The position numbers and the translations under genes were made by a program. Shown piece after piece: positions 1 to 44,342 of a stretch of 44,342 bases of DNA. The stretch comes from a virus. Positions within the stretch are counted from its first letter, which is position 1. The number at the start of each line of letters is the position of its first letter. The stretch spans positions 1 to 44,342 of IMG/VR virus record IMGVR_UViG_3300028558_000042; one strand, written 5' to 3'. The notes below the pieces were generated by a model that was not told where the DNA came from, did no database searches, and was given only the letters and a program-made list of their open reading frames with translations.

Positions 1-12
1 GGTACCGGCGAC
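1..12. repeat. Left copy of 12-bp terminal repeat; putative cos overhang
   Basis: GGTACCGGCGAC begins the window and recurs exactly at 44331-44342. Across the joined ends the 12-mer is centred on an imperfect dyad, with pairs matching at 12 of 18 positions (GCG flank, CCGG centre, CGC flank). That is the geometry of a lambda-type cosN cut with a 12-nt 5' overhang. The cos reading is inference; an assembler overlap is the alternative. Confidence 0.6.
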
Positions 13-25567: not shown

Positions 25568-25601
25568 GGACCTCGGTGAACACCGGGGTCCTTCTGCTTT
25601 T
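25568..25601 (+). terminator. Intrinsic terminator of the late operon
   Basis: GGACCTCGGTG and CACCGGGGTCC pair over 11 bp with one G-U and a two-base loop, followed by TTCTGCTTTT. This is the best rho-independent terminator in the window. It lies between converging late and cargo transcripts, with the DUF3800 stop at 25600 abutting the T tract. Confidence 0.8.
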
Positions 25602-26382
25602 AAGGGAAGATTTTGAGTCCGTATCCAGGGATGTATCCGTTCTTGTTCCGGAACTTCGGCCGGATCACGTCAAAGGAGCGGTTTGGCTGCTTGGGATCGA
25701 GTACATGTCGGCCGATCGGTCGCGCGATCAGGTCGGCGAGCTGGAGGCCGGGCGAATTGGCAATCTTCGGCATCATGCGCACGTCGAAAGGAAGGCGCTC
25801 TTGCACGAGGCTATTCCCGTCACAGACTCGCCGAAAAGCAAGCTCGAGCTCAGCATCCTCCTTCTTCCCGCGGCACTCAAAGATGAAGTGGGTCAGATCC
25901 GCATGCGCGTTGATGTCGCGGAGGTGATTGAATACGCGCTCGAGCCCGTACTTGACCCCGAGGTCATAGGGTGATTCCGGGTCATGGTACGCGACGGCAT
26001 GCTTATGCTTGTTGATCGCGATGGCGATCAACGTGAAATCTGCCTGGTCGACGATGAGGGAGAGATCGCCCATGAACTCCTCGCGTCGCGTCTTATCGAC
26101 TAGGAACGTGAAATCTCCCTCGGCCTTCCGAATCTCGCGTTCGTGAAGAACGATCGCATCGTGGCCGAAATGCTTGAGCTTCATTCGGGCCACGGCGGGC
26201 ACGAGTCCTTCCGAATAAGCGTCATGACGCATGATGCAGAAGGCGAGCACGAACATGGGATAGGCGGCATCGATGCGATCGAGGCTATGATCACCGCTCT
26301 CGTCAACGAAAACGATGTATTCGCTTCGCTTCTGGAGCGGCGCTCGTGGAAGAGGCAGGATCGCCGAAGTCACCGCAACCAT
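25600..26382 (-). CDS. DUF3800 family protein
   Basis: A 260-residue protein. DUF3800 hallmarks are the N-terminal strand VFVDESGDHSLD (about 23-34), IVLHEREIRKAEGDF (about 76-90), HFIFECRGKKEDAELE (about 164-179) and the C-terminal LQLADLIARPIGRHVL (about 213-228). Conserved acidic residues Asp25, Glu79 and Asp217 suit an RNase-H-like metal-binding fold, but no activity is established for the family. It is the promoter-distal gene of the minus-strand cargo operon, overlapping the preceding gene by 13 bases. Confidence 0.87.
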   Translation of the reverse strand: MVAVTSAILPLPRAPLQKRSEYIVFVDESGDHSLDRIDAAYPMFVLAFCIMRHDAYSEGLVPAVARMKLKHFGHDAIVLHEREIRKAEGDFTFLVDKTRREEFMGDLSLIVDQADFTLIAIAINKHKHAVAYHDPESPYDLGVKYGLERVFNHLRDINAHADLTHFIFECRGKKEDAELELAFRRVCDGNSLVQERLPFDVRMMPKIANSPGLQLADLIARPIGRHVLDPKQPNRSFDVIRPKFRNKNGYIPGYGLKIFP

Positions 26383-32529: not shown

Positions 32530-32775
32530 ATGACGAGCACGGCACCAACGACCGCCACCCCGCGCCGCACCGGCACGGTCCGCTGGTTCAACGACGCGAA
32601 GGGCTACGGCTTCATCGCCATCGACGGCGGCGAGGACGTCTTCGTGCACTACTCGGGAATCGTGGGCACCGGCCGGAAGTCGCTCATGGACGGCGAGCTC
32701 GTGACCTGCGAGGTCGGCCAGACGGAGAAGGGGCCGCAGGCCTTCCGCGTGCAGCGCGTCCCGGCCGCCGGCTGA
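32530..32775 (+). CDS. Cold-shock domain protein (CspA-like)
   Basis: An 81-residue single cold-shock domain. GTVRWFNDAKGYGFIAIDG holds RNP1 (KGYGFI) and DVFVHYSGI holds RNP2 (VFVHY). The end has GPQAFRVQRV, typical of Csp proteins. It binds single-stranded RNA or DNA and melts secondary structure. In a phage it could aid early mRNA translation or antitermination in a GC-rich genome. The stop is followed directly by the HerA-like gene. Confidence 0.92.
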   Translation: MTSTAPTTATPRRTGTVRWFNDAKGYGFIAIDGGEDVFVHYSGIVGTGRKSLMDGELVTCEVGQTEKGPQAFRVQRVPAAG

Positions 32776-34595
32776 TGACGAAGGCGCCCGTGGTGGCCAC
32801 GACCCTGCAGCTCGGCCCGGGCTGCGAGTTGCCGCTGGAAGCGATCACGGAGACGATCGCCATCCTCGGTATTCGCGGCTCAGGCAAGACGAATTCGGCC
32901 GTCGTGCTCGCCGAGGAGCTGCGCTATCACGACCAGCAGGTTGTCGTGATCGACCCGACCGACGTCTGGTGGGGGCTCCGCTCGTCGGCCGACGGCACGG
33001 CCTCCGGCTATCCGGTGGTGGTCCTCGGCGGCAAGCACGGCGACGTGCCGCTCGCGGCGACCGATGGGAAGGTGATCGCGGATTTCGTGGTGGATCGTCG
33101 CGCGTCCGTCGTGCTCTCGACCCGGCACTTCGAAAGCCAGGCGGACGCGCGGCGGTTCGTCACGGACTTCGCCGCCCGGCTCTACTATAGGAAAGGCCAG
33201 CAGGAATCGCCGACGCCGATCATGATCATCATCGACGAGGCGAGCCTGTTCGTGCCGCAGCGGGTGATGGGCGAGGAAGCGAAGTGCGTGGGCGCCATCC
33301 AGAAGCTCGTGCGGCAGGGGCGGTCCTCCGGCATCGGCGTCACGCTCATCGACCAGCGGCCGGCGTCGGTGAACAAGGACGTGCTCTCGATGCTCGAGCT
33401 GCTCATCTGCCACCGCACGACGGGCCCGCAGGATCGGAAGGCGCTGACCGCCTGGGTCGAGCAGCACGACACCGGCTCGCATGGGAAGGAGTTCCTCGCG
33501 CAGCTCGCCGGCCTGCCGCGCGGGACCGCATGGTTCTGGTCGCCCGGCTGGCTCGACCTGTTCCGGAGCGTCGCCGTCCGCGCGCGCCGCACGTTCGACA
33601 GCTCGCGCACGCCGAAGGCCGGCGAGCGCGCCGTCGCGATGCCGGCCGCGGTAACGCCGGTCGACGTCGAGGCGCTGCGCACGCAGCTCGCGCAGACGAT
33701 CGCGGCGGCCGAGGCGGACGATCCGAAGAAGCTGCGCGCGCGGATTCAGGAGCTCGGCCGGGAGCTCGTCGCCGCCAAGCGCGCGGCGCCGGCGATCGCC
33801 GACGCCCTCGATGCCGAACGATTCAAGCTGGCTCGTGCCGATGGCGGGAAGGAGGCCATCGACTCCGCACTGGCCGCCATCCGTCTTGAGATCGCGGTCT
33901 TCCAGAAGAACGTCGTCATCGAGCTCGAGGGGCTGCGGGAAAAAATGTCCGCCGCGAATAAAATGCCGGACGGCATATCGAACGCAGTCCCGGCGCCGAC
34001 GCGTCGCGAGATCGAGATCCGCCGGCCGCCGAGCGAGTCGGCGCGCGCGGTGCTGACGTCAGCGGCTCGCGCCGCCATCCTGCCCGCGCTCACGGGCCCC
34101 GAGCAGAAGATCCTCGATGCGCTCGCCTGGCTCGCCTCGATCGGCGTCGACGAGCCCGAGCAGGCCGCGGTCGCGTTCGTGGCCGGCTACACGGTCGGCG
34201 GCGGGTCGTACAACAACACGCGGTCGAAGCTCAAGGTCGCGGGGCTCATCGAGTACGCCGGCGATCGCATGCGGCTCACGACGGAAGGCGCGCTTCTCGC
34301 GAACCAGCCCGCCGGCGATGTCTCCGGTGCAGCGCTGCGCCAGCGCGTTTTCGATAAGCTGCCCGGACCGGAATCGAAGATCTACTCGGTCCTCATCGAC
34401 CGGTGGCCGCACGCGGTCCCGCAGGACGAGCTCGCGCAGCTGGCGGGCTACTCCGCTGGCGGCGGGGCGTTCAATAACCCGCGAAGCCGGCTCCGCACGC
34501 TCGGCCTGATCGACTATCCGCGGGCCGGCTTCTGCCGAGCACGCGACATCCTGTTCCCCGACGACAGCCACATCCCGAAGCGGAGCGTCGCATGA
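32775..34595 (+). CDS. HerA/FtsK-like ATPase with tandem winged-helix repeats
   Basis: A 606-residue protein. The ATPase domain has Walker A GIRGSGKT (32-39), Walker B IMIIIDEA (149-156) and IDQRP (192-196), the set seen in HerA/DUF87-type DNA-translocating ATPases. A coiled-coil linker follows (about 290-420). The C-terminus carries two similar winged-helix repeats, at about 435-525 and 530-600, each with a G-Y-x-x-GGG-x-[YF]-NN-x-RS-x-L core. No classical replicative helicase was recognised in this phage, so it may act as the DNA motor for replication, repair or segregation. It overlaps the excisionase gene. Confidence 0.82.
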   Translation: MTKAPVVATTLQLGPGCELPLEAITETIAILGIRGSGKTNSAVVLAEELRYHDQQVVVIDPTDVWWGLRSSADGTASGYPVVVLGGKHGDVPLAATDGKVIADFVVDRRASVVLSTRHFESQADARRFVTDFAARLYYRKGQQESPTPIMIIIDEASLFVPQRVMGEEAKCVGAIQKLVRQGRSSGIGVTLIDQRPASVNKDVLSMLELLICHRTTGPQDRKALTAWVEQHDTGSHGKEFLAQLAGLPRGTAWFWSPGWLDLFRSVAVRARRTFDSSRTPKAGERAVAMPAAVTPVDVEALRTQLAQTIAAAEADDPKKLRARIQELGRELVAAKRAAPAIADALDAERFKLARADGGKEAIDSALAAIRLEIAVFQKNVVIELEGLREKMSAANKMPDGISNAVPAPTRREIEIRRPPSESARAVLTSAARAAILPALTGPEQKILDALAWLASIGVDEPEQAAVAFVAGYTVGGGSYNNTRSKLKVAGLIEYAGDRMRLTTEGALLANQPAGDVSGAALRQRVFDKLPGPESKIYSVLIDRWPHAVPQDELAQLAGYSAGGGAFNNPRSRLRTLGLIDYPRAGFCRARDILFPDDSHIPKRSVA

Positions 34596-34852
34596 CCGCG
34601 ATCGCCCATCAACCCCGCGCCATGGACTCTCTCACGCGCCCACGCTGGCCGCGCGGCCTCACGCAGAAGGAGGCCGCCGAGTACTGTGGCGTCTCCGCCT
34701 CCTGGTTCCGCGAGAACGTCCACGTCGAAGCGAAGCCGGTGGGCATGCCCAAGCCAGGCGAGAAGCCGGTGCTGCGCTACCGCATCGAGGATCTCGACGC
34801 CTGGCTCGACGACTGCGCCGCGCTGCGTGGTGCACCGCGGAGGAGCTCATGA
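34592..34852 (+). CDS. Excisionase / HTH (MerR/AlpA-type) protein
   Basis: An 86-residue protein. Residues about 22-50 form a winged HTH (GLTQKEAAEYCGVSASWFRE), and the RYRIEDLDAWLDD ending is the usual form of Xis/AlpA proteins. It overlaps both its neighbours by four bases, directly upstream of the integrase, where recombination directionality factors usually lie. It would bend DNA at attP and favour excision. Confidence 0.82.
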   Translation: MTAIAHQPRAMDSLTRPRWPRGLTQKEAAEYCGVSASWFRENVHVEAKPVGMPKPGEKPVLRYRIEDLDAWLDDCAALRGAPRRSS

Positions 34853-36045
34853 TGGCCTACGTCCCGAAAGGGCGCACGATTCTGCGCGTGGAAGTGCCGC
34901 GCCTCGAGGCGCGCGCGATCGCCTGTTCGACGGGCACGCGCGACCGGCACCTGGCGGCGAAGATGGAGCGGATGATCGCCGAGCTGGGCCCGCGCGAAGC
35001 GCAGGCGTGGGACATCCTCGGCGCGGTGACGAGCCGTCGGATCTCGCTCCCGACGCTCTGGCGTTGGTGGGTCGAGGACGGCCGCGACTTGCGGAAGATC
35101 CGCGCGCGGCTCGACGACGTCGATCTGGCGACGCACTTCGATGCGTGGGAGAAGGACGTCACCATCAACGCCAGCGCCGGCCATGCCGCGCGGTACCGCG
35201 CCGAGGTCGAGACGCTCGCCGAGGACGGCATGCTGCCGCGCTCGGCGCTCACGACCGCGCGGCTTAAGACGTGGCTTGCGAGCCGGACGGTGGGGCAGGG
35301 GGACGCGGCGCGACCGGCGAAGAGCGGCACGCTCCGCCACTACTACAACGCGGCGACGTCGTTCTTCCAGTACTGCCGCGCGATCGGCGTGCTGACGCAT
35401 GACCCGCTCGAGTCGATCGACGCGCCCTCTGCCGGCGCGCCGCGCGATCGCCATCTCGAGACGGCCGAGGCGTTGGCCTTGGTGGAGCATCTCGCCGAGC
35501 CGTTCAAGAGCCTCACCGCGCTCCTGGCCGGCGCCGGCGCTGAAGTCTCGCCGGCGCTCACCGTTCGCGTCGCGGATGTCGACGTCGAGAACCGCGAGAT
35601 CCGCATCCGCGGCACGAAGACGCAGCGGAAGGGCGGCTGGCGCGATCGCGTCTGTCGCGTCGCCACGTGGGCGTGGCCGTTCCTCGAGGCGCGGCTCGCC
35701 GGCCGGAAGCCGAAGGAACTGCTCTGGCCGGACATTGCCGATCGCTGGGCGGTCGCCGATGCGACGAAGGACGCCTGCGACGCGCTCGAGATCCGCGACT
35801 ACACGCCGCGCGATCATCGGCACACCTACGCGGTGCGCGCCATCAAGGCCGGCACGCCGGTGGAGATCGTCGCGCGCCAGCTCGGCCACAAGGACGGCGT
35901 GCTCTGCCTCAAGGTGTACGGGCGCTACGTGCCGAAGCAGGAGGAGCGCGACAAGTGGGAGAAGGCCGCCGCGGCGATGGATGAGGCGGCGAAGGAGCGA
36001 GAGCAGCAGTCGGACCCAGCGAGCGGTAGGTCCAGCGGTAGGTAA
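34849..36045 (+). CDS. Tyrosine integrase with unusual active site
   Basis: A 398-residue site-specific recombinase. The C-terminal catalytic domain has Lys257 in GTKTQRK, Arg324 in RDHRHTY, His347 in QLGHKD and the nucleophile Tyr357 in LKVYGRY. The first catalytic arginine, normally in GxRxSE, aligns to Glu232 (GAEVSPAL), and the His of HxxR aligns to Arg321. The alignment is by eye. The core-binding region is about 95-190. Attachment sites lie directly downstream, and the last codons contain two arm-type repeats. Identity as an integrase is secure; the altered active site is unusual. Confidence 0.9.
   Translation: MMAYVPKGRTILRVEVPRLEARAIACSTGTRDRHLAAKMERMIAELGPREAQAWDILGAVTSRRISLPTLWRWWVEDGRDLRKIRARLDDVDLATHFDAWEKDVTINASAGHAARYRAEVETLAEDGMLPRSALTTARLKTWLASRTVGQGDAARPAKSGTLRHYYNAATSFFQYCRAIGVLTHDPLESIDAPSAGAPRDRHLETAEALALVEHLAEPFKSLTALLAGAGAEVSPALTVRVADVDVENREIRIRGTKTQRKGGWRDRVCRVATWAWPFLEARLAGRKPKELLWPDIADRWAVADATKDACDALEIRDYTPRDHRHTYAVRAIKAGTPVEIVARQLGHKDGVLCLKVYGRYVPKQEERDKWEKAAAAMDEAAKEREQQSDPASGRSSGR
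36022..36043 (+). repeat. Two arm-type integrase sites, left of attP core
   Basis: AGCGGTAGGT at 36022-36031 and 36034-36043, a 12-bp period, overlapping the integrase stop. The same motif with the same spacing recurs right of the core at 36231 and 36243. Paired arm sites on both sides of a tRNA-matching core are typical of lambda-type integration. Confidence 0.78.
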
Positions 36046-36129: not shown

Positions 36130-36171
36130 CTCATAATGACGGGGTCGCGGGTTCGAGTCCCGCCCCTGCTA
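36130..36171 (+). other. attP core identical in form to 3' part of elongator tRNA-Met(CAU)
   Basis: The 42 bases give an anticodon loop (CTCATAA), the 3' side of an anticodon stem (TGACG), a five-base variable loop, a T arm (GCGGG-TTCGAGT-CCCGC), the 3' acceptor strand (CCCTGCT) and discriminator A. The 5' half of a tRNA is absent: bases just upstream (GCTT) do not pair with TGACG. It closely resembles E. coli elongator tRNA-Met. The phage would regenerate the host tRNA 3' end on integrating. The host's own tRNA should have the missing half. Confidence 0.88.
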
Positions 36172-37199: not shown

Positions 37200-37386
37200 C
37201 CGCGAGTTCCAGCTCCTCACCGGCTTTGCCGTCGGTGCGTTCGTGAGCCTGCCCGTCGGCTGGTCGCTCGGCCGCTTGGTCTACGCGGCGCAGCTCAAGC
37301 TCGGCGACTGGCTTGCCATCCGACGCGCCACGCGGGCCGCGCGCGCCGGCCGCGCCGCGCTCACCCCACCGAAATCCCATGTCTGA
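37192..37386 (+). CDS. Small membrane protein
   Basis: A 64-residue protein with one hydrophobic helix (LLTGFAVGAFVSLPVGWSLG) and a basic Arg/Ala C-terminus (AIRRATRAARAGRAAL), predicting the C-terminus inside. It overlaps both neighbours by eight bases. Function unknown. Confidence 0.5.
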   Translation: MTDREFQLLTGFAVGAFVSLPVGWSLGRLVYAAQLKLGDWLAIRRATRAARAGRAALTPPKSHV

Positions 37387-37639
37387 CACTCTCCCTTCTC
37401 CGGAGGCGCACGTGCACGTGGTGGCCACTTCCGCTCGCGCGATCGTCGTGATCGCACTGCTCTTCGCCGTCGCCAGCTGCGGCGCCACGCGCCTGCTCAA
37501 GGCGCATCCAGCCGCGGGGAACGTCCTCGCCTGGCTCGCGATCATCGCCGGCTGGGTCGGCCTGAACGCGACACCGCACTATGAGCCCCGCGGCTGGCAG
37601 GTCGCGCGCCAGCTCCGGATGTGGGAGAAGATCGCATGA
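37379..37639 (+). CDS. Small membrane protein with possible lipobox
   Basis: An 86-residue protein with hydrophobic segments IVVIALLFAVASC and VLAWLAIIAGWVGLNA. VASC at about residues 31-34 resembles a lipobox but lies far from the N-terminus. It overlaps the ParB-like start by four bases. Function unknown. Confidence 0.5.
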   Translation: MSDTLPSPEAHVHVVATSARAIVVIALLFAVASCGATRLLKAHPAAGNVLAWLAIIAGWVGLNATPHYEPRGWQVARQLRMWEKIA

Positions 37640-39441
37640 CCACCCACGCCGCAGAGACCATGAAGGGCCAGGAGGAGGAATACCGCGTCGTCGCGCTCCG
37701 CGACGTGTACGAGACGACGAAGAACCCGCGTCGCCACTTCGACAAACAGGAGATGGCGGATCTCACCGCCTCGATCGCACAGAAGGGGCAACTCACGGCA
37801 GGCATCGGCCGTCCCGATGCGAAGGGACGCATCGAGCTCGCCGCGGGCGCGCGCCGTCGCCGCGCCATCGAGGCACTCGGCCTCGCCTCGATGAAGGTGA
37901 TCGTGCGGCCGATGAGCGACCAGGAGTTCCTCGACGTCATCATCATCGAAAACGGCCAGCGCGCGGATATCCATCCGCTCGAGCAGGCTGAGGGCTTCAA
38001 GCGCCTCCTCACCGAGTCGCGCTACGACGTCCCCACGATCGCGGAGCGATGCGGCCGCTCCGAGCAGCACGTCTACGACCGCCTGCAGCTGCTCAAGCTG
38101 GTGCCGATCGCGCAGGATCTCTTCCTCGAGCGGCGCTTCGAGCTCGCGCATGCCGTCCTCCTCTCGCGGCTTCCGCGCGAGGTCCAGGCCGAGCTCGTGC
38201 ACATCGAGGATGACGGCTACGCCCATGGCGAACTCTGGAGCCGCGAGTCGGTCAGCGACCTCTTCGCTGCTGACGAGCACGATCAGCAGCGGCTCAAGCC
38301 GATCAGTCCTCGTGAGCTGGAGTCGTGGATCAACCGGCACGTCCGCTTCTCGATCGACGATGAGACAGTGCCTCAGCTCTTCCCGGCGACGGTCGAGGCA
38401 TTCGCGAAGGCGGAGGCGGCCGCACAGAAGGTCATTCCGATCACGTACAGCCACCAGCTGCACGACGACGCGAAGGACGGCAAAGTGCGCACGTATGGTG
38501 CGCAGTCGTGGACGCGCGCCGACGGACTCGAGGAGTCGGTCACGTGCGATCGCTCCGTGCTGGGCTACGTCGCGGCCGGCCCGCGACGCGGCGAAGCGTT
38601 CCTGATCTGCGTCGACAAGAAGAAGTGCGAGGTTCACTACGGCGCCGAGATCAAGGAAGCCAAGCGGAAGGAGAAGGTGCGCGCCCAGGCGGCCGCCGGC
38701 GACGAGGGTGCGAAGGCGAAGGTCGAGAAGGAGGACAAGAGCGCCGCGCTCAAGGCGAAGAAGGAGGAGCAGGCCAAGGCGGTGCGTATGCGGGCCGCGG
38801 GTCCGCTCCTCGATGCAGTGAAGTCCACGATCGCCAAGCTCTCGGACAAAGCGCTGGTCGCGTGGGCATGGGCGCGCGTGCGTGACGGCGAGCTCTGGCG
38901 CCATTGGGACTCTCCGCTCGCGAAGCAGAAGACGCCGCCGAAGAACTCCACGGAGTTGCTGCGGACGATCTGCCTCGACGGCCTGCTAGACAACCACGAG
39001 AACGTGAGCGCCGGCGTCGAGCGCTCATTCGATGCGCTCCTCGACGACGCCGAAAGCATCGGCGTCGACACGGCGAAGATCCTCAAGGCGGCGGCGAAGG
39101 ATCCGGCGGCCGCGAAGGTGCCCGTCAAGGCGCCGAAGCAGAACAAGACCGCGAGCAAGAACAAAACGGCGGTGAAATCCCGGCCGCGCACGGTCTTCAT
39201 GGCGCCGATGCAGCCGAGCCCTGAGCTCGCCGCGATCGTGGGCTCCGCGCCACTCCCGAAGACGGAGGTCATCAAGAAGCTCTGGGCACACGTGAAGAAG
39301 CACGGCCTCCAGAACAAGAAGAACAAGCGGCTGCTGAATCTCGACGCGCCGATGCAAGCCGTGTTCGGCGCGAAGCCGGTGATCAGCATGTTCGACCTCG
39401 CGAAGGGGATGACGAAACACCTGTCGCCGGCGACGCCATGA
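37636..39441 (+). CDS. ParB-like protein fused to C-terminal SWIB domain
   Basis: A 601-residue protein. The N-terminus is a ParB/Srx nucleotide-binding domain: NPRRHF (30-35), GARRRRA (71-77), ENGQRADIHPLEQA (105-118), then an HTH (TIAERCGRSEQHVYDRL, about 134-150). A middle Cys-containing part (SVTCDRSVLG, LICVDKKKCEVHYGAE) is followed by a Lys/Glu/Ala helix. The last about 80 residues are a SWIB/MDM2 domain: KTEVIKKLWAHVKKHGLQ, NKKNKRLLNLDAPMQAVFG and MFDLAKGMTKHL. No ParA lies nearby. Start ATG 37636 overlaps the previous stop. A DNA-bound platform for transcription or segregation is likely. Confidence 0.85.
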   Translation: MTTHAAETMKGQEEEYRVVALRDVYETTKNPRRHFDKQEMADLTASIAQKGQLTAGIGRPDAKGRIELAAGARRRRAIEALGLASMKVIVRPMSDQEFLDVIIIENGQRADIHPLEQAEGFKRLLTESRYDVPTIAERCGRSEQHVYDRLQLLKLVPIAQDLFLERRFELAHAVLLSRLPREVQAELVHIEDDGYAHGELWSRESVSDLFAADEHDQQRLKPISPRELESWINRHVRFSIDDETVPQLFPATVEAFAKAEAAAQKVIPITYSHQLHDDAKDGKVRTYGAQSWTRADGLEESVTCDRSVLGYVAAGPRRGEAFLICVDKKKCEVHYGAEIKEAKRKEKVRAQAAAGDEGAKAKVEKEDKSAALKAKKEEQAKAVRMRAAGPLLDAVKSTIAKLSDKALVAWAWARVRDGELWRHWDSPLAKQKTPPKNSTELLRTICLDGLLDNHENVSAGVERSFDALLDDAESIGVDTAKILKAAAKDPAAAKVPVKAPKQNKTASKNKTAVKSRPRTVFMAPMQPSPELAAIVGSAPLPKTEVIKKLWAHVKKHGLQNKKNKRLLNLDAPMQAVFGAKPVISMFDLAKGMTKHLSPATP

Positions 39442-39974
39442 GCGCGGCAACGAAGAGGAAGGTGCCGCGTCAGGCGCGCGGTGACGGCCAGACGCCGACG
39501 GCGCAGCTCGAGCCCCTCCGCTGCGCGGAGTGCGATCATGCGCTCGAGCTCGCCTGCCCGAATGGCCACGACGTGACGCGCTCGATCGCGCGCCTCTCGC
39601 CGGAAGAGGCCAAGCCCTACGTCGGCCGGCGGACGTTCTCCGACCGGGAGCCGGAGCCCAAGCGACGGGCGAGCGCTCCACCAACCACGCCCGTCGTGCC
39701 GCCGAAGCCCGCACCCGTTCCGCGTGTCGCGTCGTCGGCGGCCGCGGCGCCGGCGCGGAAGCTCCGCGGGCCGGCCCTGATCCTCGAGATCCTCGGCGCG
39801 CGCGGTGCGCTCACCACCAAAGAACTCTCCGCCGCGACCGGGGCGAAGCCCGGCGCCGTGCAGATGTCGCTCTCCGTGCTCAAGCGCGCCGGGCATCTCG
39901 TCATCACGCGGGACCCGCGTCACGTCGGACCCGCGTACACAAATCTCTACGCCGTCAGGAAGGACGAGATCTGA
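39438..39974 (+). CDS. Zinc-finger and winged-helix regulator
   Basis: A 178-residue protein. CAECDHALELACPNGHD at about 29-45 offers a zinc site. After a Pro/Arg linker, residues about 108-178 form a winged helix (LILEILGARGALTTKELSAA, GAVQMSLSVLKRAGHLVI), MarR/DprA-like. It is coupled to the ParB-SWIB gene by an ATGA overlap, so the two may act together. Probably an early DNA-binding regulator. Confidence 0.72.
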   Translation: MSAATKRKVPRQARGDGQTPTAQLEPLRCAECDHALELACPNGHDVTRSIARLSPEEAKPYVGRRTFSDREPEPKRRASAPPTTPVVPPKPAPVPRVASSAAAAPARKLRGPALILEILGARGALTTKELSAATGAKPGAVQMSLSVLKRAGHLVITRDPRHVGPAYTNLYAVRKDEI

Positions 39975-40677: not shown

Positions 40678-41405
40678 TGCGCTGGATTCGTGTGGTACGC
40701 GAGATCAAGACCGACAAGGACGTCGCCGCGCTGGCGCGTTTCCTCAAGCTCAAGCGCGCCGAGGCCGCCGGTCATTGCCTCTTTCTCTTCCTCGAGCTGC
40801 CCCTGGCCGCTCCTGATGCCGACGTGAGCGGCTTCTCGGATGTCGAGCTCGACGCGTTCGCCGGCTGGGAAGGCAAGCGCGGCGCGTTCGGCGCCGCCTT
40901 CCGCGAGTTCCTCTGCGCCGACGGCCTCGTGAAGCATTGGGACGAGATCAACGGTGCGCCGATGCGTGCCTCCGATCGCGAGGCGGAGCGCAAGGCGGAC
41001 TTCCGCGCGAAGCGGCGGCGGACGCGCGGCGAAAGTCCCACTGGGACAGGCGATGGGACAGGCGGTGGGACCGAGGGTGGGACAGAAGGCGGACGGGCGG
41101 CGGGACATGGCGGGGACAATTCTGGTGACGGTAACGGGGGTTTGGGGGGAGAAGCTCCGCTTCTCTCCCCCCAAACCCCAACCGCGCAAGGCGCAGGCGC
41201 GCGCACGCAAGGCCAAGCGACGCCGAAGGTTCGACTGTCGGCATTCTGCGCGGAGTGCGTCGGACAGCCCGGTGCGGTGCACGGATTCACGGACCACACC
41301 GCCGACTGCCCAGTGGGCGTGCGAGAGGCACAGCAACAGCCACGGCCACTGCGTGTAGCGGTCGGCGCGAAGGCAGAGCTCGTCGCGCAGCGGGTGGCCT
41401 CGTGA
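40677..41405 (+). CDS. Replication-initiator-like protein (lambda O role), carries ori-like repeats
   Basis: A 242-residue protein. Residues about 1-95 look like the winged-helix N-terminus of phage replisome organisers (RWIRVVREIKTDKDVAALAR, then VSGFSDVELDAFAGWEG and FREFLCADGLVKHWDEI). A repetitive Gly/Thr linker (about 120-150) is encoded by 12-bp iterons. The C-terminus has paired cysteines (FCAECVGQPGAVHG, TADCPVG). Lambda O likewise carries the origin within its coding sequence. The family match is by pattern, so the role is moderately supported. Confidence 0.62.
   Translation: MRWIRVVREIKTDKDVAALARFLKLKRAEAAGHCLFLFLELPLAAPDADVSGFSDVELDAFAGWEGKRGAFGAAFREFLCADGLVKHWDEINGAPMRASDREAERKADFRAKRRRTRGESPTGTGDGTGGGTEGGTEGGRAAGHGGDNSGDGNGGLGGEAPLLSPQTPTAQGAGARTQGQATPKVRLSAFCAECVGQPGAVHGFTDHTADCPVGVREAQQQPRPLRVAVGAKAELVAQRVAS
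41035..41089. repeat. Four 12-bp iterons, putative replication origin
   Basis: TGGGAC starts at 41042, 41054, 41066 and 41078, exactly 12 bp apart. Units are TGGGACAGGCGA, TGGGACAGGCGG, TGGGACCGAGGG and TGGGACAGAAGG. GTCCCA at 41035-41040 pairs with the first unit as an inverted repeat. Further GGGAC occurrences lie at 41102 and 41113. Iterons are typical initiator-binding sites. Confidence 0.62.
41137..41179. repeat. Large inverted repeat beside iterons
   Basis: Left arm about 41137-41155 (GGGGTTTGGGGGGAGAAGC) and right arm about 41159-41179 (its complement with two extra bases), separated by TCC. It can extrude about 19 bp. It lies within the coding region, about 50 bp after the iterons. 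It could be a primer or initiator structure of the origin. It is not followed by a T tract, so a terminator is less likely. Confidence 0.65.
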
Positions 41406-41989
41406 CGGGCGCCATGTCGGTGGACGATCTCCCACCACACATGCGGGAGCGGGCGAGAGAGCAGCTGCTCATCCCGAAGACGCCGGCCGTCGGCAAGAGC
41501 GATGTCAGTAACATGCGCGAGATAGAGCGCATCATGGCGCGGGCGGAGCAGGGCATCAACACCGAGCCGCTCCGTGGCGACGTGAAGCCGCGGGGACGCA
41601 ACGGCGGCCGGCGGGCGCAGCCGGAGCACGAGCATCAGCGCCAGCTCTTCAGCTGGGCGGACGACGCGATCACGCGCCTCGCGCTGCCGGACGTCGAGTG
41701 GCTGTACGCGATCCCGAACGGCGGGCATCGCCATAAAGCCACGGCCGGCAAGATGAAGGCCGAGGGCGTGCGCGCCGGCTATCCCGACATCGGCCTCGAC
41801 GTCGCGCGCAGCGGCTTCAACGGCTTCCGCGGCGAGTTGAAGGCGCCAGGCGCGCCGGGCGCGAACGAGAACCAGCGCCGCTGGCATGCCTGGCTCAAGC
41901 GGCAGGGCTACTGCGTTGTCGTCTGCCACGGCTGGGAGGCGATGCGCGACGAGATCATCGGATACCTCACCATGGACAAGGAACGCTGA
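41402..41989 (+). CDS. VRR-NUC domain nuclease
   Basis: A 195-residue protein with a VRR-NUC fold, the restriction-like nuclease found in FAN1 and phage Holliday-junction resolvase relatives. Motifs: EHEHQRQLFSWADDAI (about 75-90), AIPNGGHRHKATAGKMKAEG (about 103-122), VRAGYPDIGLDVA (about 123-135) with the catalytic Asp, GFRGELKAPG (about 142-151) with the E-x-K, and the C-terminal VVVCHGWEAMRDE. I use GTG 41402 because it overlaps the previous stop, as elsewhere; ATG 41414 is an alternative. Probably a resolvase for replication intermediates. Confidence 0.88.
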   Translation: MTGAMSVDDLPPHMRERAREQLLIPKTPAVGKSDVSNMREIERIMARAEQGINTEPLRGDVKPRGRNGGRRAQPEHEHQRQLFSWADDAITRLALPDVEWLYAIPNGGHRHKATAGKMKAEGVRAGYPDIGLDVARSGFNGFRGELKAPGAPGANENQRRWHAWLKRQGYCVVVCHGWEAMRDEIIGYLTMDKER

Positions 41990-44095: not shown

Positions 44096-44342
44096 GCGAA
44101 CGCTTCTCGCTCGCGAACCGCGGCCATCTCTCGCTCTTCGTCGGCATCCTCCTGCGCGACGGCGCGCTCTGTCCCTCCTGCGGCTACGGCACACGCAAGA
44201 CGTCGAAGCGATGGGCCACGTGCAAGCGTTGCGGTGAGCGCGTCGCACGCGGGGATGGTGCGCACGCCCCGCTGTCGCGCTCCTGCTCGGCAGATGTTGC
44301 CGGGTCCTCCCAGAGCCTTTCGGCGCTGCGGGTACCGGCGAC
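44092..44342 (+). CDS. Zinc-ribbon protein crossing the contig junction
   Basis: The frame starts at ATG 44092, overlapping the previous stop, and runs off the right end. CPSC and CKRC (RKTSKRWATCKRCGERVA) form a zinc ribbon over about residues 30-50. Merging the repeated 12 bases continues it to the stop at 29-31, about 89 residues in total. Crossing the junction in frame supports a circular or cos-joined genome. It might be an HNH-associated or packaging factor, since such small zinc proteins can lie near terminase. Function unknown. Confidence 0.7.
   Translation, partial: MSERFSLANRGHLSLFVGILLRDGALCPSCGYGTRKTSKRWATCKRCGERVARGDGAHAPLSRSCSADVAGSSQSLSALRVPA
44331..44342. repeat. Right copy of 12-bp terminal repeat; putative cos overhang
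   Basis: Identical to 1-12. End-filling of 5' cohesive ends of 12 nt would give exactly this direct repeat at the two ends of a linear sequence. Confidence 0.6.

Follow-up and report, generated by a model that had tools for sequence, protein, structure and literature searches.

A ParB-type protein fused to a SWIB domain in the integrase region of a temperate siphophage

We report a 601-residue protein (P0001) that joins a ParB-type N-terminus to a C-terminal SWIB/MDM2 domain and is coded by an uninterrupted ORF (37636..39441, plus strand, stop included) in an IMG/VR virus record, analysed here over its full length of 44,342 nucleotides (the window). There is evidence that phages made this joining more than once and, as far as can be judged from sequence, its repetition suggests a useful way of holding or compacting DNA.

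Architecture of the fusion protein

Three Pfam models match the protein separately, all above their curated cut-offs: the ParB N-terminal (CTP-binding) domain (residues 17-106, 37684..37953, +; PF02195, E=4e-15), the ParB helix-turn-helix (HTH) DNA-binding domain (residues 111-188, 37966..38199, +; PF17762, E=1e-10), and the SWIB/MDM2 domain (residues 524-596, 39205..39423, +; PF02201, E=5.5e-21). The first-pass annotation of this DNA, which had read a ParB-type N-terminus with an HTH and a C-terminal SWIB domain between the same coordinates, was thus correct, and its assignment of the C-terminal residues is further supported by fold matches. In an AlphaFold2 model of residues 336-601 the SWIB region attains a pLDDT of ~80-89, and Foldseek searches with this model recover SWIB/MDM2 structures as the top PDB matches (1v31, E=8e-5; 1uhr, E=4e-4). 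In sequence searches of the PDB, the N-terminus was matched best by ParB family proteins (7o0n), and the C-terminus by UAF30 and a plant SWIB protein. Membership in the ParB/RepB/Spo0J family is indicated by a TIGR00180 score of 109 bits against a cut-off of 58; assignment to the PRTRC ParB family (TIGR03734) was rejected, as the score of 98.8 bits lies far under the cut-off of 278.6. An AlphaFold2 model of the ParB half, computed from a three-sequence alignment, had a mean pLDDT of 53.

The ATG at 37636 is preceded by GGGAG and, as read directly from the sequence, overlaps the stop codon of the upstream ORF as ATGA; an alternative start is the GTG at 37621. Between the HTH and the SWIB domain lies first a middle region (residues 189-337, 38200..38646, +) with a conserved C304...C325-K328-C331-H334 array, which is common to P0001, its homolog in the Gemmatimonadota prophage L120 (see below) and the SWIB-less protein L129, and is a possible metal-binding site. 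It is followed by a K/A/E-rich segment (residues 338-386, 38647..38793, +) overlapping a predicted long helix (357-401) and, further on, by a K/A-rich tail (residues 478-523, 39067..39204, +; 22% K, 24% A) that forms the joining point with SWIB. With computed pI values of ~11.4 for this tail and ~10.6 for the SWIB domain, P0001 displays, by composition and pI, a basic H1-like tail beside SWIB of the kind known from the plastid protein SWIB-4. The usual C-terminal dimerisation domain of ParB gave no Pfam match in the protein at E<=1.

Nucleotide-binding and hydrolysis positions

In alignments, P0001 keeps the CTP-binding positions R32, S46, G51, G71, R73, R74, E105, N106 and R109, among them those of the GxRR and ENxxR motifs. 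Among its 73 complete relatives, the positions R32, G51, G71, R73, R74, N106 and R109 are kept in 71-73 and S46 in 68. Both positions implicated in CTP hydrolysis, a Q and an E, are replaced: N30 (codon 37723..37725, +) aligns with Q52 of Myxococcus xanthus and Q58 of Caulobacter crescentus ParB, and A72 (codon 37849..37851, +) with E93 and E102 of the same proteins. At position 30, N is present in 72 of the 73 relatives and Q in all four chromosomal ParBs; position 72 is occupied by E in 26 relatives, H in 24 and A in 15. The other fusions vary likewise, with L015 and L032 keeping the E, and L120 having an A along with a T at the R73 position. In the alignment to 7o0n, N30 and A72 face a Q and an A that are 41 chain positions apart. 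We take this chain to be M. xanthus ParB, because the spacing fits Q52/E93, and the A, standing where the related chain 7bnk has an E, would agree with the E93A mutant.

The A72 of P0001 is the same change as the 'clamp-locked' E102A of C. crescentus, which binds CTP and closes without hydrolysis, and dissociates ~15-fold more slowly; mutations that abolish or weaken CTP binding in the same protein define positions kept in P0001 (PMC8367383). The M. xanthus Q52A and E93A proteins are likewise hydrolysis-defective (PMC9178275). ParB-fold proteins may also bind ATP or GTP, residue identity alone not fixing the nucleotide (PMC12704722). The CTP-dependent clamp that had been suggested for this protein is hence plausible at the level of the retained binding residues, but since both implicated hydrolysis residues are replaced, a standard CTPase cycle is not to be assumed. 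The relatives form a family, existing in nature, that retains the residues for CTP binding but varies in those implicated in hydrolysis (E in only 26 of 73), and the role of CTP hydrolysis becomes testable in natural proteins and not just in point mutants.

Recurrence of the fusion and the source of its SWIB domain

Three further ParB-SWIB fusions were found, in the Gemmatimonadota prophage L120 and in the IMG/VR contigs L015/L031 and L032. Each exceeds the Pfam cut-offs for ParB_N, HTH_ParB and SWIB, and the SWIB match has E<=6e-21 in every one of the four divergent proteins. The L120 protein, coded on a Gemmatimonadota chromosome, aligns with residues 13-596 of P0001 (35% identity, E=4e-90); this co-linearity rules out an assembly chimera or a frameshift artefact. 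Its prophage adjoins a tRNA-Asn gene, part of whose 3' end is repeated ~50 kb away, and codes for an integrase and for a related terminase and portal protein. The L031 fusion is preceded by a repressor-like gene and followed by an integrase; upstream of the L032 fusion lies a CI-like repressor. All four fusions are situated in integrase or repressor regions. The prophage at tRNA-Asn, ~50 kb long and with the ParB-SWIB gene adjoining the integrase, is spanned by L123-L127 (Gemmatimonadota genome G1091, joined ~33311-83423).

Samples of up to ~1,280 genomes from four phyla surfaced one ParB-SWIB fusion, in surveys most of which used a cut-off of E<=1e-58 that divergent fusions could escape, and none of the best 80 genomic SWIB loci was a ParB fusion. 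No SWIB domain was detectable in 50,697 INPHARED phage records. The architecture is therefore not one already common with a known function, either in the phage records or in the genome samples. Scans of IMG/VR and GTDB contigs with the single protein found no relative because they matched exact 8-mers; alignment searches did find relatives. A 599-residue frame of the acidobacterial genome G362, considered as a candidate, was discarded upon inspection of its sequence, in which no ParB-SWIB fusion was seen.

Among the best 80 relatives from the IMG/VR scan (27-51% identity), none has a SWIB domain. The C-termini of the 73 complete proteins among them differ, with a basic tail in 36 and a CxxC-type zinc-ribbon-like end in 9, and the nearest Gemmatimonadota relatives, L129 and L130, stop in a K/A-rich tail where P0001 runs on into SWIB. 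Similar long ParBs are frequent in Acidobacteriota; the ParB part is a long accessory ParB of the type common in phages and plasmids and not a chromosomal ParB. Certain phage long ParBs (L197, L198, L206, L210, L219 and L192, L194, L208) exhibit recurring C-terminal pieces, namely a WPFP[TMI]G motif and a KDYVI...KGKVPKEL[VI]K piece, and this recurrence suggests that their C-terminus is a swappable module.

The SWIB domain had been regarded as mainly eukaryotic or chlamydial. This does not hold, as standalone SWIB genes are common across many bacterial phyla, including Acidobacteriota, Verrucomicrobiota, Gemmatimonadota, Bacteroidota, Elusimicrobiota, Planctomycetota, Pseudomonadota and others. 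These proteins share with P0001 the flank 'MxPxxPSxxLAxVVGxxPLPRTE', which precedes the domain, and the SWIB domain, often following a K/A-rich N-terminal tail, and differ from it in having no ParB. Given this breadth, the source of the domain was probably a bacterial standalone gene with a similar K/A-rich tail, and a plausible route of joining runs via the two similar K/A-rich tails, one at the end of the ParB and the other at the start of the SWIB protein. One standalone phage SWIB was recovered by a DNA pattern search; the phage contigs L017 and L020 code for standalone SWIB proteins whose H1-like tails are strongly enriched in lysine.

In a SWIB tree, built on short sequences and weakly resolved, the L032 domain groups with Betaproteobacteria, that of L015 lies near Acidobacteriota, and that of P0001 groups with a Gemmatimonadota one, which suggests, without proving, that different fusions captured SWIB separately. 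AU tests reject holding all four fusions together (p-AU 5.7e-5), and also P0001, L120 and L032 together when the long-branch L015 is left out (p-AU 2e-5), and the rejection of a single origin implies that SWIB was added at least twice. A shared origin of P0001 and L120 is not rejected (p=0.07 and 0.65), so that four separate gains cannot stand as a firm count. We accordingly limit the claim to at least two apparent gains, perhaps three or four, and such repeated gain would imply a benefit.

Phage setting and proposed function

The window is a temperate siphophage. From the left, its genes code for the two terminase subunits (small and large), the portal, a head protease, the major head protein, the tape measure and the tail proteins; a HerA-like ATPase comes next, followed by an integrase and the ParB-SWIB operon. 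The ATPase (32775-34595) is HerA/FtsK-like with a long extra C-terminal part, and is preceded by a small protein judged by eye to be cold-shock-like (32530-32775). Just past the tyrosine integrase (34849..36045, +; phrog_1, E=6e-33; PF00589), and adjoining it, lies an attP core consisting of the 3' half of a tRNA-Met(CAT) gene (36130..36171, +). With up to two mismatches, this 42-base core is present in 36 out of 150 genomes of Gemmatimonadota, and in none of 75 and 75 genomes from the phyla of an acidobacterium and a betaproteobacterium; hence, the host is probably a member of the Gemmatimonadota. The ParB-SWIB gene belongs to a tight operon of the integrase/replication region and overlaps both neighbours by ATGA: its start overlaps a small upstream ORF (37313..37639, +) with a weak DUF7224 match under the cut-off, and its stop overlaps a downstream ORF (39438..39974, +) coding for a protein with a Cys-rich N-terminus and a MarR-like winged helix (PF12802, E=1.5e-5, narrowly missing the curated cut-off).

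The first-pass annotation had noted that no ParA is nearby and deemed plasmid-style partition unlikely. Indeed, the ParA motif KGGxGKT is missing from all frames of the window, and P0001 has no ParA-binding motif [LFI]G[KR]G[LFI]. The window, which may have a divergent site, has no match to the canonical 16-bp parS even with three mismatches allowed, and perfect palindromes near the gene are no commoner than chance and yield no parS candidate. Together with the integrase and tRNA attP, these absences led us to reject plasmid-style partition as the main reading.

We instead tentatively favour, at slightly short of an even call, the view that P0001 is an orphan phage ParB clamp, long-lived and equipped with a DNA-architectural tail and SWIB domain, that would organise or silence phage DNA. 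We prefer this long-lived compacting or silencing clamp because of the missing ParA motif, ParA-binding motif and parS, the operon setting, and the precedent of SWIB-4, whose H1 motif and SWIB domain bind and compact DNA and which complements E. coli hns (PMC4154389). The HTH would load a dimer at a phage-specific site, whereupon CTP binding would close the ParB ring and the clamp would slide onto nearby DNA. As both implicated hydrolysis residues are replaced, the closed clamps should outlast those of chromosomal ParBs, and the K/A-rich tail and SWIB could then act on DNA by binding and compacting it, or else bring in a partner, so that a lasting nucleoprotein domain would form locally on the genome of the phage or prophage. 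Its most likely purpose would be to regulate and organise the phage DNA around the switch between lysogeny and replication, and not to partition it. What we observe are the domains and residues, the genomic setting, the recurrence of the fusion and its joining point; loading, clamp lifetime, DNA compaction and purpose we infer from them. On the other side, most relatives manage without SWIB and the E-to-A change is not present in all SWIB fusions. With somewhat less assurance, we suggest as a possible generalisation that phage ParB clamps keeping CTP binding, with hydrolysis altered or lost, have repeatedly captured the bacterial SWIB nucleoid protein to become self-loading, long-lived and DNA-compacting, as viral chromatin factors assembled from two parts of bacterial origin.

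SWIB domains can be protein-binding modules, as in MDM2, rather than DNA binders, which counts against the clamp reading. The domain, having the MDM2 peptide-binding fold, might thus serve in recruitment, its groove binding a host or phage peptide (of RNA polymerase, a replication factor or a nucleoid protein, for example) while the ParB part targets the whole protein to phage DNA, as a regulator or host-takeover factor. A bacterially derived SWIB could compete for the partner of a bacterial SWIB, and the gene adjoins those for the integrase and the winged-helix protein; however, bacterial SWIB is not known to have a partner (PMC12445093) and the basic tail next to the domain would be more usual in a DNA binder, so that we regard recruitment as unlikely, if still credible. 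Distinctly less probable is that the protein silences distant phage promoters in the manner of the RK2 plasmid protein KorB, which acts in the KorB-KorA system as a sliding clamp that has become a repressor (PMC11790492), being held by an HTH partner, perhaps the product of 39438-39974. The overlap of this MarR-like gene with the ParB-SWIB stop codon and the missing ParA motif fit such a role, but the winged-helix match is under the curated cut-off and an operator was not found. A ParA-free partition, in which the basic tail and SWIB tether extrachromosomal phage DNA to the host nucleoid as a hitchhiker, would agree with the ParB-type DNA-binding part of the protein, the strong basicity of its nucleoid-type C-terminus and the lack of a ParA motif in the vicinity; we consider it very unlikely, as a phage with an integrase and a tRNA attP, and with an integrated prophage relative, has little need for partition, and no canonical parS is present. 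That SWIB is a near-neutral addition of little function, one of several interchangeable ends, would agree with the varied C-termini of the family (36 of 73 basic, 9 of 73 zinc-ribbon-like, no SWIB among the complete relatives) but is hardly credible given a domain intact in four divergent proteins (Pfam E<=6e-21) and gained at least twice.

Among known systems, canonical ParB/Spo0J and Noc have ParB_N, HTH_ParB and the CTP-binding residues in common with P0001, which differs from them in lacking a ParA, the ParA-binding motif, a canonical parS and a Pfam match to the C-terminal dimerisation domain, and in its N and A at the two hydrolysis positions. The long accessory ParBs of Acidobacteriota genomes and plasmids and of the Variovorax phage VarioGold have the same ParB core and long middle, and the acidobacterial ones also the basic C-terminal tail, but no SWIB. 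Conversely, chlamydial TopA-SWIB (PMC12445093) and topoisomerase III-SWIB (NF011313) are DNA-acting proteins with a C-terminal SWIB after a flexible region, yet they are topoisomerases, not ParBs, and the window protein matches them only over the SWIB end. SWIB-4 resembles P0001 in the basic H1-like motif beside SWIB but is a plant organelle protein without ParB (PMC4154389). KorB (PMC11790492) is a ParB-type clamp for gene control, and a candidate HTH partner gene is present here, but it is without SWIB and a regulatory role for P0001 is an unproven reading. The orphan and mobile-element ParBs (Kaljevic et al. 2025, PMC12704722) likewise have a ParA-less ParB-CTPase fold found on phages with fused domains; the main text of that survey does not mention SWIB or MDM2 among the fusions and apparently does not single out a long phage family with altered hydrolysis positions. 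A full-text literature search for SWIB with ParB returned apparently nothing about a fusion. SWIB thus adds a fusion partner to the ParB-fold switches, which are increasingly seen as general modules beyond partition. The fusion also offers a way into the study of bacterial SWIB proteins, common yet almost devoid of known functions, and speaks against regarding prokaryotic SWIB as largely chlamydial.

Elsewhere in the window, the product of 41255-41989 resembles by eye a VRR-NUC type nuclease, for which a Pfam search gave no match. The same 12 bases, GGTACCGGCGAC, stand at both ends of the window (1-12 and 44331-44342), shortly before the terminase genes. They may represent a cohesive end of the cos type, in which case the record may be a complete genome. 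A DUF3800 protein is coded on the opposite strand (25600-26382, -) in a stretch of lower third-position GC, and its gene is likely an accessory one.
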